Shown one piece after another: positions 25,240-44,500 of a DNA stretch of 64,000 nucleotides. Each line of letters opens with the position of its first letter. Position 1 is the first letter of the stretch. A program made the position numbers and the translations under genes. The notes beneath the pieces are model-generated. The model was given only the letters and a program-made list of their open reading frames with translations, made no database searches and had not been told where the DNA came from. Source of the DNA: Candidatus Saccharimonadota bacterium. GTDB taxonomy: Bacteria > Patescibacteriota > Saccharimonadia > Saccharimonadales > Saccharimonadaceae. The stretch is from NCBI GenBank assembly GCA_017619315.1, contig JAFZSN010000006.1, positions 38,281-102,280 on the forward strand. The letters run 5' to 3'.

Positions 25240-25268
25240 TTGACTTTTGTGGTTGGAAGGCTTAAAAT
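25240..25268 (+). promoter_or_regulatory. Promoter of antisense sRNA, locus 1
   Basis: TTGACT (25240-25245), 17 bp, TAAAAT (25263-25268) on the plus strand. The -10 sits within a palindrome (AAGGCTTAAAA...TTTTAAGCCTT) that can also act as a hairpin at the end of the minus-strand peptide mRNA. Confidence 0.6.
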
Positions 25269-25273
25269 ACAGT

Positions 25274-25345
25274 AAAGTTTTAAGCCTTACAGTTTAGAAT
25301 TTATAGGGTAAATTGATTATCGCTTCCTCCTGGGAGCGATTTTCA
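25274..25345 (+). ncRNA. Candidate antisense sRNA opposite the 24-residue peptide gene
   Basis: A predicted ~70-nt transcript from the 25240 promoter ends at the hairpin ATCGCTTCC (25319-25327)/GGGAGCGAT (25332-25340), followed by TTTC. It is antisense to the last nine codons and 3' UTR of the minus-strand peptide gene at 25317-25391. The same arrangement occurs at 34.1 kb. The T-run is short, so termination is plausible but not strong. Confidence 0.5.
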
Positions 25346-25391
25346 ATTTCACTGTAAGGCGTAAACGTCCCAGATTGATTGAAAGTTTCAT
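25317..25391 (-). CDS. 24-residue highly basic peptide, locus 1
   Basis: Small ORF with a strong SD (AAAGGAGG, 8 nt before ATG 25391). The peptide begins MKLSINLGRLRLTVKL and ends IAPRRKR, with nine basic residues and no acidic ones. Its SI-x-x-x-RL-x-x-TVKL...RRK pattern matches the 30-residue peptide at 34.2 kb. A minus-strand promoter TTGAAA-17-TAAGAT lies ~100 bp upstream, with the hairpin GCCCCA/TTGGGGC between. Downstream hairpins at 25258-25290 and ~25183-25215 (CCACCCGAG/CTCGGGTGG) can end the mRNA. Function unknown; toxin, leader or nucleic-acid binder are all possible. Confidence 0.6.
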   Translation of the reverse strand: MKLSINLGRLRLTVKLKIAPRRKR

Positions 25392-33961: not shown

Positions 33962-34036
33962 TCCCGGGTAGCTCAATGGTGGAGCAAGAAGCTGTTAACT
34001 TCGAGGTTGCTGGTTCGAGTCCAGTCCCGGGAGCCA
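33962..34036 (+). tRNA. tRNA-Asn(GTT)
   Basis: Acceptor TCCCGGG (33962-33968)/CCCGGGA (34026-34032). The D arm contains AGCTCAATGGTGGAGC. The anticodon loop CTGTTAA gives GTT. The T arm is GGTTCGAGTCC. Discriminator G and an encoded CCA (34034-34036). Confidence 0.95.
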
Positions 34037-34038
34037 TT

Positions 34039-34058
34039 GACCCAAGAGGGTCTTTTTT
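34039..34058 (+). terminator. Terminator of tRNA-Asn
   Basis: GACCC-AAGA-GGGTC followed by T6 (34053-34058). Confidence 0.85.
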
Positions 34059-34083
34059 GATGCCTGGACTCGGACCTTCGGTG

Positions 34084-34096
34084 CGAGTCCAGTCCC
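34084..34096 (+). repeat. 13-bp copy of the tRNA-Asn 3' part (att-like)
   Basis: CGAGTCCAGTCCC repeats 34016-34028 of the tRNA T arm. It sits within a hairpin GGACTCG...CGAGTCC just after the tRNA terminator. Duplicated tRNA 3' segments often mark integration sites. Only 68 bp separate the copies, so this may instead be a short remnant. Confidence 0.35.
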
Positions 34097-34125
34097 TTGA
34101 CAGCGCCAATTATCTATCATAGAAT
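34097..34125 (+). promoter_or_regulatory. Promoter of antisense sRNA, locus 2
   Basis: TTGACA (34097-34102), 17 bp, TAGAAT (34120-34125). It directly precedes the repeat-encoded sRNA. Confidence 0.65.
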
Positions 34126-34219
34126 AAAAACATAACCAGTGCAGTTCTAGAATTACACTGGAATAGGTTGGTCTAGTTCGCTACCCGCGAACTAGATTTT
34201 TTCTTCGGCATACTCGCCG
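34123..34219 (+). repeat. Direct repeat copy A
   Basis: 34123-34161 is identical to 35192-35230 (39 bp). 34174-34219 matches 35245-35290 at 42 of 46 positions. The spacer between the two blocks differs. The repeat covers the sRNA and the 3' end of the peptide gene. Confidence 0.9.
34132..34203 (+). ncRNA. Repeat-encoded antisense sRNA, copy A
   Basis: Predicted ~70-nt RNA with two hairpins, CCAGTG...CACTGG (34136-34161) and CTAGTTCGC (34173-34181)/GCGAACTAG (34187-34195), then ATTTTTT. It is antisense to the last codons and 3' UTR of the 30-residue peptide gene (34181-34273). A near-identical copy lies at 35201-35274, and both keep a promoter and terminator. Confidence 0.6.
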
Positions 34220-34273
34220 AAAAGAAAGTTTTACGGTGATTTGCAATCTCCATATTGAAAATCGTACACCCAT
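34181..34273 (-). CDS. 30-residue highly basic peptide, locus 2
   Basis: Small ORF with SD AAAGGAG 4 nt before ATG 34273. The peptide begins MGVRFSIWRLQITVKLSF and continues RRVCRRKNLVRG, with ten basic and no acidic residues. It shares SI...RL-x-x-TVKL...RRK with the locus 1 peptide. The stop TAG lies inside the sRNA terminator stem. A possible minus-strand promoter, TTGAAA-17-TAAACA, is ~140 bp upstream, a spacing similar to locus 1. The minus-strand hairpin CCAGTG/CACTGG followed by TTATGTTTTTATT can terminate the mRNA. Confidence 0.6.
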   Translation of the reverse strand: MGVRFSIWRLQITVKLSFRRVCRRKNLVRG

Positions 34274-34275
34274 CT

Positions 34276-34519
34276 TACTCCTTTCCGAACTTCTGGCATG
34301 TCTAGAATAGCTGTTTAATGAAGCTCCACACCCTCACGAACATAGGCTCGTGCTAGACCACACTAAACACCGAAGTCAACCCACCGATATGTTTAGCACT
34401 ATAAAGAATTATTTTCAACCGCGTTTTTATAAGATATTTGCATAAACACGAAAATCGAGAATGTTTATGGCATAAAATAGGGAGACTTCCACAGTCTCCC
34501 TATTAGTGTTGCATGGACT
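34276..34519. other. Leader region of the locus 2 peptide and terminator of the next gene
   Basis: 34276-34430 is the predicted 5' leader of the peptide mRNA (minus strand), with hairpin-forming words such as CACGAG...CTCGTG. TAGGGAGACT (34478-34487)/AGTCTCCCTA (34493-34502) is a strong hairpin followed on the minus strand by TTTTAT, and terminates the gene at 34520-35065. No further gene seen. Confidence 0.5.
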
Positions 34520-35165: not shown

Positions 35166-35194
35166 TTGTGCCAAACCAACTTTTGATATAAAAT
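35166..35194 (+). promoter_or_regulatory. Promoter of the second sRNA copy
   Basis: TTGTGC (35166-35171), 17 bp, TAAAAT (35189-35194). It differs in sequence from the copy A promoter but sits at the same place. Confidence 0.5.
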
Positions 35195-35290
35195 AAAAAC
35201 ATAACCAGTGCAGTTCTAGAATTACACTGGTTGTGGGTTTGGGCTAGTCCGCTACTCGCGAGCTAGCTTTTTTCTTCGGCATACTCGCCG
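35192..35290 (+). repeat. Direct repeat copy B
   Basis: Second copy of the 34.1-kb repeat (39 bp identical, then 42/46). On the minus strand it keeps codons for RRVCRRKKLARE and a stop, but an in-frame TAA lies just upstream and no start remains. The peptide half is therefore a 5'-truncated remnant. Confidence 0.85.
35201..35274 (+). ncRNA. Repeat-encoded sRNA, copy B
   Basis: Predicted ~73-nt RNA with the same first hairpin (CCAGTG/CACTGG) as copy A and a terminator GCTAG...CTAGC followed by T6. It has no complete peptide gene opposite, so it could act in trans on the locus 2 peptide mRNA. Confidence 0.55.
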
Positions 35291-41512: not shown

Positions 41513-44500
41513 TTATTCCCCTTCTTGCTGCGAGGGCGTGTCAGCCATCGTGCCTTCTGTCAGGGTCCTTTTAACCCACTCTCTGAACTCTTTCCCTTCT
41601 GGGATATCAAGGCCATCGACGGTTTTTACGGCGGTTTCGACGGCTTCCCTCTGTGTCGGGGTTAGGTTGAGCCAGACCCTCGAGAAGCGTTCGTCGGGAT
41701 TTGGGTCGCTACCTGGTTTTTCTAGAAGTACCTTAACGGCATCTTCGCCAATAAATGAGAAATCATTGTTTAGCAAGTTAGTATAATAATCTCTTCTTGC
41801 TTTCCTGATCTTCTCAGCCTCTTCGTCGGCTTGATCGTTCTTTCCACTATTGCCCGCCTGTTCACCGCCTGCTTGGCCATCGTCTTGCGGTGGTGTAGGC
41901 TGGTCGGCGTCTGGGTTGGGCTGCTCAGTAGCGGGTGGGGTTGGCTGGGTTGGCTCGCCATCGCCCGACTCACCCTCTGTCGCTGGTGGGGTTGGCCCAC
42001 CATCGCCCGACTCACCCTCTGTCGCTGGTGGGGTTGGCTGGGTTGGCTCGCCACCTTGGTCAGGTGTTTTTTCTGCCGCTGTGCCATTACCTATACCGAC
42101 ACGAGCAGACATGGCTGGGAGAACAACGCCATCATAGATGGTCCCGCCCGTCGGCAATTCGAAGTTGTAGATTGCCGGTTTAGTGATAACCTCCTCTACA
42201 GACTCCTGGAACATACCCGTGAACGGACCACCACTTAGATTACCCACGCTGGTAGCCATTGGCACAAATTCTGTCAAACCAGTGCTTGCATCTTTGCCAA
42301 ATGTTGCACCAATTTCAAAGTATTCATATAGTTTGTTTCCAGCCGAGTCGACAGCTTGAATGATATCCCCACTAGTCGTAGTGATCATGCCATTTTGGAT
42401 AAACGTGATCTGACCGTTAGCGGCAGGGATTCCTTGCGCCTCAAAGCGTACGCCATTAATAGTGACAAACCCTTTAATTCTATTCTCTTGGACGAGGTTC
42501 TCGAAGTTCAAAGTTCTGCCGCTAATTGGAGCAATGGAATCACCATGCATAGCAGTAGTCATAGTATAAGCGCCATCACCCGAGACGCGTAACTCGTTAC
42601 CATCGTAGGCCTCGGTGCCGTTATTGGCCCATTCTCTCACGAATACCTTAGCCGCGTGAGGCGAGGTGGCAGGATCACCATCAATGTATGTCTTGCGCGT
42701 AGTGATAACTTCGTCAGAAACTTTGGTTCCTCTGTACCCGCTTCGTCTAAGGCTCTCCATCTCATCGACTCTATCTGCAGAAATACCTTTAATAGCGCCT
42801 GGGCTCCTAGACTTGATCAATGAAGCTATCATGGTTTCTTTAGCATTAGCCTGGTTTTGAGTCTTGAAAACACCAAGTTTCTCAAGGGCACCGATCTTAT
42901 TCTCGCTCACTAACGCAGCCCCTTCCTGAGACAAGAAGAAGCCAACTCCACTAAAGAGGGCTGCCCTCCCTGATGCCTTAAGCGTCTGGAGCAAACGGAC
43001 ACGCTTGAATTCTTCGTCGCCTTTGTCGACATCTTTCGTGATCTTAGAAAGAAGCGTTTTTCGCATCTCGGCTAGTGTAGCTTGGTTTTCAGGTTTAACA
43101 ACACGTCGTTTTGCCTCAGCGAGCGCGATATCTAAAGCAAGTCTCTCATCACCCTCATTGAATTCTGATGAGGATGAGATGAGCCCTTTCTCTTCGGAGT
43201 CTGAGAAGTCGACACGAACCCTGGCGGCCGTGTAAGCTCTCATGATTTTTTCCTCATCACCACTCTCTATAGCGCTGTTAATGTTCGCGATAAGCTCTGA
43301 GGTTGACTCTAGACCATAAGTCGTGCCTGCGATTTTTTCTTCGAGTTTAGCGCGTTTCTTTGCAAACCTAGATTCTGCTTCATCTGGGTTGTCTTCATAT
43401 TTTCGGCCTTTCTCCATGTTTCGCATCATTACTTCGCGTTCGTTGGTGACCCTTCTTCTCTCTCTTGCACCAGCCAGAGCGCTCGAAACCAAAACGCCGC
43501 CTACTGGGATCAACAATCTGGCAGCCCTATTCGCGCCGGATTTAGCAAAGAGCGAAACGACGCTTGTCGCTATTGCGACAGTTTCTGGACTGATAAAGCG
43601 CGAAAGACTACTCTTCTCCCATTTATCAATCAATTGATCCAGTTTACCTCGGCTGACCTTGGAGCGTTCTGAGTCGCGCACATCTGCATTATACACGGCA
43701 AACTTTTCTAGAACCTTGTCCATTGATACCTTGCCACGCATTAACTCCTTAACTTTGATAGCATTCTCTGCTACTTCGAAGTAATTGTTCATGTAGTCAG
43801 GATTATCAAAATTGCCTTCTTGCTTCAGTTTAGCCATCTCTTCTTTAAGCATGGCAGTAAATTGCTTTTCGTCTGCCGCGTCGCCCCTTGCTTCTGCATA
43901 TTTCATGATCGCATTACGAATTGCTTCAGTTTTCTCCTTGTCTGCTTCTGTGCGGCTCTCGCCAAAAGCTTGGTGGATATAATCCATCTCGTTTTCAGTC
44001 ACGCTTCTAACGACACGGCCAATACCGCCTTTAATATTCCTTTCCATAATCGTGTCAAGGCTAATTTGTTCGCCATCTCTGTTGAGCTTTCGGCCCTCTG
44101 TTAGGAATTCTCTCTTATATTTCGTCTTGTAATACTTTTCGAAATAATTCATCCAGAGGCGCTTAAAGAATTTCGCATTTTTTGTTTGAATACCGAATTC
44201 CTCTTCGGCAAGTTGGGTTGCGCGAACGTCTCGATCGTAGCTAGTGTTGGCCTCAACGGCAACAAGTGCACTTGAGCCGGCCAGTTCTTCGAGCATAGCA
44301 TCGATTTCCTCGATCCTTTCGTTGCTTTTTTCTATGATTTGATCTTCCACTTCCGTTGCTTTTTTGTCCATGTCTTCCAATTTTTCGATCTCAAGGGTGT
44401 CCAGCTTTTCGCCGTCCAATGCATCTTTAGCCCTATCGAGATTGATAAGTTCTTCTGTGTCCGGGTCGAAAGAAACATCAGTTTTGTCATCGGGGCTATT

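Follow-up and report, generated by a model that had tools for sequence, protein, structure and literature searches.

In the hok/Sok system, the antisense RNA Sok acts near the leader of the toxin mRNA and Hok is a membrane toxin; a 1997 paper by Gultyaev is said, from its title, to report coupled covariations in hok mRNA. In the aapA/IsoA systems of Helicobacter, as described in the sections of the sources used here, a contact between the 5' and 3' ends of the mRNA sequesters the Shine-Dalgarno with an anti-Shine-Dalgarno sequence and the toxin is a transmembrane helix (PMC6733600, PMC8309996). For aapA/IsoA and hok alike, the same sections describe a closed mRNA that stays inert as long as its 3' end is untrimmed (PMC6733600), and membrane-associated type I toxins are there given a hydrophobic alpha-helical transmembrane domain (PMC8309996). 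In Bacillus subtilis, according to excerpts of a further source, the antisense RNA of yonT/SR6 overlaps the 3' end of the mRNA by ~65 nt, with decay by RNase III, and BsrG (bsrG/SR4) acts at the membrane (PMC5848175). In the literature that we searched, no type I toxin system or small RNA of Saccharibacteria or Patescibacteria was found.

The locus studied here (locus 2) lies in a 64,000-nucleotide stretch of DNA, the window, on contig 9 of the 11 contigs of an 848-kb Candidatus Saccharimonadota genome. We think it likely that locus 2 is a chromosomal type I toxin-antitoxin-like cassette, in which an mRNA closed by kissing loops is silenced by an antisense sRNA that overlaps its 3' end. The cassette is real and recurs in gut Saccharibacteria. 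Compared by description of features and not by peptide sequence, it resembles aapA/IsoA, as far as the excerpted sources go, in its ~30-residue peptide with a basic C-terminus, its several chromosomal copies, its antisense RNA and its 5'-3' long-distance contact (PMC6733600, PMC8309996). It differs in that the contact is between loops and leaves Shine-Dalgarno access unchanged in silico, that the sRNA overlaps the mRNA 3' end and that the peptide has beta periodicity. As in yonT/SR6, bsrG/SR4 and txpA/RatA, the two genes are convergent, but the excerpts of PMC5848175 describe no closure comparable to the kissing one for these systems, and no Rfam or Pfam hit is shared with them. Like hok mRNA in the part of PMC6733600 used here, the mRNA would be folded 5' to 3'; unlike in hok/Sok, it is the 3' end over which the sRNA lies, and Pfam gave no match for the peptide.

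The locus 2 element spans positions 34097-34418 of the window, beyond the 34097-34273 covered by an earlier note on this DNA, which had overlooked that the leader is structured, that loops pair between 5' and 3' and that further peptide types and sRNA-only copies exist. The ORF that this note had described is present on the minus strand (34181..34273, ATG start) and encodes a basic 30-residue peptide, MGVRFSIWRLQITVKLSFRRVCRRKNLVRG, which we call type A, behind the Shine-Dalgarno AAAGGAG (34278..34284, minus strand), which is mostly kept, with small changes, among aligned copies (alignment A3, see below). Copy alignments place the mRNA leader at 34274..34389 (minus strand, 5' end presumed). 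The minus-strand promoter proposed for it, TTGAAA (34418-34413)-17-TAAACA (34395-34390; 34390..34418), can be read in the sequence but is weak and is absent from the list of a consensus promoter scan, so that we keep it as a candidate.

The peptide belongs to a family that recurs within the genus and is maintained at the protein level. A profile of 16 members matched 31 of 175 genus genomes at E 0.01 (26 at E 0.001 or less, the best E of the other 5 lying above 0.001), some of them with several copies; it matched 6 of 199 genomes in a family sample and, in a wider version, 12 of 294 in an order sample, with one genome outside the genus each time. The exact leader motif occurred in 19 stretches of a genome collection, all from Candidatus Saccharibacteria, of which 10 came from sheep or goat gut by their titles. 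Listed copies are 20-31 residues long, within the limit of fewer than 60 residues for type I toxins. Over codons 2-18 of 29 copies, type A had a pN/pS of 0.385, and in a subset of 10 copies the value was 0.391 against a mean of 0.925 for column shuffles, none of 300 being as low. The type A peptide is thus under purifying selection at the codon level, and conservation as a mere DNA repeat with frame-breaking changes, which the earlier note had named as a refuting outcome, is not what we found, even if two copies are broken (a premature stop in G036, a lost start codon in one G162 copy) and others consist of the sRNA only. None of the 16 members matched a family in Pfam, PADLOC or NCBIfam at E 1, and no match to the sequences of solved structures was seen at E 1. 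A phage, plasmid or viral origin was also considered and set aside: in collections from which records of the same genomes may be missing, the sRNA DNA and the type B peptide (below) had no phage match, the type A peptide had no plasmid match and two exact leader patterns had none in viral contigs.

In hydrophobic moment calculations, all 11 segments tested (residues 2-18) favoured a beta arrangement, with moments of 0.46-0.76 at 160-170 degrees against 0.09-0.30 at the helix angle and a phase shift near residues 8-9. AlphaFold modelled the peptide as a helix (pLDDT 74), at a pTM of 0.28 on which we do not rely. Judged from the moments, and with the AlphaFold helix as the opposing model, the peptide appears to lack a hydrophobic transmembrane helix of the usual kind; our tentative reading is an amphipathic peptide of beta type whose tail is basic.

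A second peptide of the window, at locus 1 (type B, MKLSINLGRLRLTVKLKIAPRRKR, 25317..25391, minus strand), shares with locus 2 the RL-x-x-TVKL core and the RRK motif, as had been observed before. The core is encoded by different codons at the two loci, which argues for a kinship of proteins and not of DNA alone. Type B had a pN/pS of 0.443 (7 sequences, no shuffle control), and its antisense promoter TTGACT-17-TAAAAT (25240..25268, plus strand) is kept in G001 and G056. Besides locus 1, the genome holds three full copies of the element (in the window and on contigs 3 and 4) and one sRNA-only copy, which has TTGTGC-17-TAAAAT and both hairpins without a peptide start (35166..35275, plus strand, also delimited as 35189-35275; found with the model R1 described below and by sequence).

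The plus strand carries what appears to be a separate sRNA gene, complete with promoter and terminator. The promoter TTGACA (34097-34102)-17-TAGAAT (34120-34125; 34097..34125), which has 11 of 12 consensus matches and is conserved over copies, and the two-hairpin RNA ending in ATTTTTT within the peptide ORF (34196-34202) are both there as first described. Placing the start from the promoter and the end from the T-run gives a predicted RNA of ~73 nt (34130..34202), whose terminator hairpin and T-run (34170..34202; from folding and a terminator scan) overlap the 3' end of the ORF. Folding of positions 34120-34225 yields -35.4 kcal/mol (z -5.69), lower than for any of 200 shuffles, whose mean is -18.15. 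At locus 2 the consensus scan lists a single site resembling a promoter and a single one resembling a terminator, compared with 0.9 and 0.4 in shuffles, so that the sites taken alone do not exceed chance; our confidence in them is raised by their recurrence in copies of the same genome and of sister species and by the promoter scores. These averaged 10.1 of 12 over 38 sRNA copies (7.5 for shuffles) and reached at least 10 in 29 of the 38, compared with 1.9% of shuffles; one copy (G096a) was mis-anchored in the scoring and by eye has TTGACA-17-TAGAAT, and some copies with an ORF have a weak -35 (own_C3, own_C4 and G160a, 8 of 12). The layout is type I-like as first proposed, combining a small basic peptide under purifying selection with a predicted antisense sRNA that has a promoter and a terminator of its own.

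To follow the sRNA by itself, we used a covariance model (R1) built from 29 copies, with rough E-values and hits that were read in part. R1 matched 59 of 172 genus genomes at E 0.001; in a family set of 246 genomes, its matches at E 0.0001 fell in 11 genomes within the genus and in 9 from a single sister genus. Every type A ORF locus whose 3' side is complete (28 loci) was matched as well, an agreement that is partly circular because most of these loci trained the model; the divergent ORF of G069 had no match. Above a threshold of our own choice (at least 65 bits), we read the loci of the 41 hits: the ORF is intact in 26, interrupted by a nonsense stop in 1 and lacking its start in 12, and 2 loci lie at contig edges. 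An asymmetry of this kind, in which the peptide is lost and the RNA retained, would be expected of a harmful peptide. Rfam models found only tRNAs in the window at gathering score; a full-length match of 34120-34202 (plus strand) to CyaR, at 25.5 bits (gathering score 47) and E 0.016, was judged coincidental.

The mRNA itself would be closed by a long-distance interaction between its 5' and 3' parts. Type A leaders share GGGUUGGCUUCGG, GUUUAGUG and an invariant GGGUGUGGAG, followed by a hairpin directly before the Shine-Dalgarno, with a loop UUCUAGR or a variant of it; the loop of a hairpin in the 3' UTR is complementary. At locus 2 (minus strand), the leader hairpin pairs GAGCUUC (34326-34320) with GAAGUUC (34293-34287) and encloses the loop UCUAGA (34301..34306; hairpin 34287..34326), and the 3' UTR loop lies at 34146..34151 within a hairpin (34136..34161) that is read on both strands, as the first hairpin of the sRNA and as the 3' UTR hairpin, a possible terminator, of the mRNA. 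We measured these pairings in an alignment of 27 copies (A3), which omits G054a and G160b (contig edges) and G069, G240 and L145 (divergent). The two loops pair in 161 of 162 cells, 26 cells and 4 of the 6 pairs being changed on both sides, and the sole unpaired cell belongs to G036, the copy with the premature stop. Neither the percentage paired nor the covariation score was equalled in any of 500 shuffles, while 24 of the shuffles reached the count of two-sided pairs and 146 that of further pair types; partners slid out of register paired in 22-56% of cells. Since the copies are related by descent, the cells are not independent events; the loop pairs, however, vary between species and partly between copies of one genome (G160, G157), and such different pair types within a genome make pure descent unlikely as the cause.

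The hairpins that present the loops are conserved as well. In the 3' UTR hairpin (helix 296-303/313-320), 95.2% of cells are paired and 5 of 8 pairs are changed on both sides; in the leader hairpin (helix 108-114/144-150), the figures are 98.9% and one pair. A possible second leader stem, between GUUUAGUG (34368-34361) and CAUUAAAC (34320-34313; 34313..34368, minus strand; helix 19-25/115-123), is less well supported, with 91.2% of cells paired and one two-sided pair change. Taken jointly, the thirty proposed mRNA pairs are formed in 96.2% of cells and 12 of them are changed on both sides. The 3' UTR also contains CCAACC (34166..34171, minus strand), which shows a conserved complementarity, without covariation, to GGGUUG at the leader 5' end. 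As a covarying second closure GGGUUGG/CCAACCC was rejected: in 39 of 40 elements (one lacking the searched motif dropped out), the longest run was 6.26 against 5.11 for shuffled linkers, but swapped partners scored equally well (6.22), and we claim no covariation.

Type B has a leader unrelated to that of type A, yet it too is complementary between 5' and 3': across 13 copies, a 7-base stretch before the Shine-Dalgarno and another further downstream are complementary in 88 of 91 cells, 9 of which are changed on both sides, although 101 and 96 of 500 shuffles did as well on the counts of two-sided pairs and of further pair types. These 13 copies (alignment A4) are drawn from 15 type B loci, G008 (contig edge) and G041 (divergent) being omitted; G050 is in neither A3 nor A4.

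We propose that the parts work together as follows. The minus-strand mRNA would encode a small cationic amphipathic peptide that is probably harmful when freely made, and would close on itself as the leader loop, just upstream of the Shine-Dalgarno, kisses the 3' hairpin loop; this closure may block translation or may permit it. The strongly promoted sRNA would overlie the 3' UTR together with the final codons, an overlap that gives ~73 nt of complementarity. Given this overlap and the better promoter, the long duplex should silence or destroy the mRNA, as has been reported for SR6 and yonT (PMC5848175). The 5' loop of the sRNA, being the complement of the 3' loop, is nearly identical in sequence to the leader loop, so that the two would be rivals for the 3' loop. 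Kissing of the leader with the sRNA was rejected as a control step: it would form 4 or 5 of 6 pairs in 13 of 27 sequences, against 6 of 6 in 26 of 27 for the leader with its own 3' UTR. A closed mRNA that stays inert until 3' trimming, as in aapA/IsoA and hok, may hold here. Sequestration of the Shine-Dalgarno by the 3' end, however, was not retained: computed without pseudoknots or kissing over the 27 sequences, access was 0.42 in the full mRNA and 0.44 after an in silico 3' cut, so that an aapA-like switch is not seen.

The most durable alternative keeps the antisense control but makes the peptide harmless to its producer, either as a secreted or surface cationic peptide directed at neighbours or host cells, or as a small regulator. 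Cationic amphipathic beta-type peptides do resemble some antimicrobial peptides, Saccharibacteria live on other bacteria, and the RNA control is maintained around peptides that vary widely, all of which would suit such a role. Yet no signal peptide, exporter or immunity gene was noticed beside the copies in an unsystematic view, and an sRNA maintained where the ORF start is lost, as in 12 of the 41 strong hits, fits an antitoxin better. We regard a harmless peptide as unlikely, and prefer a toxin-antitoxin-like cassette.

Searching with R1 further revealed the same scaffold around other, mostly basic, peptides in the genus and in one sister genus. Twenty loci around R1 hits comprised 12 with an ORF of a third kind (type C), 1 in which its start codon is lost and 7 without such an ORF. 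Type C ORFs, mostly like MTIEINLLCIVFRRRKNRRSKKSTR, stand behind a Shine-Dalgarno-like stretch and have a pN/pS of 0.246 (12 sequences, no shuffle control); a profile of them had hits in 41 of 172 genomes at E 0.01, and two copies lie in the same genome outside the window (contig 2:1191-1262 and contig 4:15447-15591; L203, L187). Further scaffold loci encode other peptides, for example MSVRITIMGVSVEFGIRFPKFKKIRR and MVQFALIIVNHNKRDDEPEKKVTK. Among 25 additional elements, 24 have all six loop pairs intact in a hairpin context, a count that leans towards success because the script picks the best site. Sorted by eye, the peptides fall into types A, B and C and about eight further groups, some of which may be distant relatives of type A.

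With somewhat less than even confidence, we suggest that this amounts to an RNA chassis of Saccharibacteria, in which a kissing-closed mRNA and an sRNA that mimics the leader loop are fitted with many small, mostly basic peptides, in two genera so far and with another leader in type B, the sRNA half being perhaps re-used upstream of surface-protein genes. If true, the chassis would define a superfamily of RNA-controlled toxin-antitoxin systems in the candidate phyla radiation, both its control principle, by loop mimicry and competition, and its class of toxins, amphipathic beta peptides, being undescribed in the literature searched; a beta-type toxin would also extend the chemistry known among type I toxins. 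Because loop pairs differ between species and copies, their specificity could be tested with swapped loops. It would then have to be asked what the cassettes protect or police in genomes of ~0.8 Mb that keep several of them.

Copies reduced to the sRNA also bear on a second alternative, in which the sRNA is the main player, in trans or as the leader of surface-protein genes, and the peptide mRNA is one of its targets or a sponge. Some sRNA-only copies have good promoters, and at 5 of 12 examined loci the sRNA lies just upstream of, and codirectional with, genes for exported-looking proteins. Such a role leaves both the codon-level selection on the peptide and the covariation between leader and 3' UTR unexplained, and we hold it to be improbable beside a cassette with a harmful peptide. 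The five loci (L174, L053, L049, L097 and L098) could be cases of re-use of the sRNA as a leader or attenuator. Two other sRNA-only copies (L100, L176) face, in convergent orientation, the 3' ends of genes whose products are repeat proteins resembling Fibrobacter-type FISUMP domains.

Locus 2 adjoins a tRNA-Asn gene, and the duplicated 3' segment of this tRNA had been taken as a hint of mobility. The duplication is real: the 3' end of tRNA-Asn is repeated in tandem, together with a terminator, in the window (33962-34097) and at L148, L149, L150, L158, L159 and L099. Mobility, in contrast, is not supported, since the repeats also occur in relatives that lack the element there. Among eight relatives in which the infB-tRNA-Asn neighbourhood is kept, five (G025, G004, G007, G006 and G020) have tRNA 3' repeats downstream, no element being present in the ~375 downstream bases that were read. 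G133 has two repeats and the element, while the window's genome has one repeat, cut off at the element. The repeats are thus part of the tRNA site. The two genomes further share the tRNA-Asn place, locus 1 and the sRNA-only copy, which argues for descent and not for recent movement. A repeat or miniature mobile element with an incidental ORF, as the multiple copies per genome and the patchy distribution across the genus might suggest, is therefore very improbable in view of the codon-level selection, the tRNA repeats without an element, the places shared with G133 and the 0 matches of two exact leader patterns in viral contigs, among which records of the same genomes may be absent. Elsewhere in the window, direct repeats of 78 and 84 bases lie at 764-1669, which by eye and on the minus strand we presume to be akin to ankyrin repeats, and tandem repeats of 42 and 37 bases at 41924-42053 may encode a low-complexity protein stretch.
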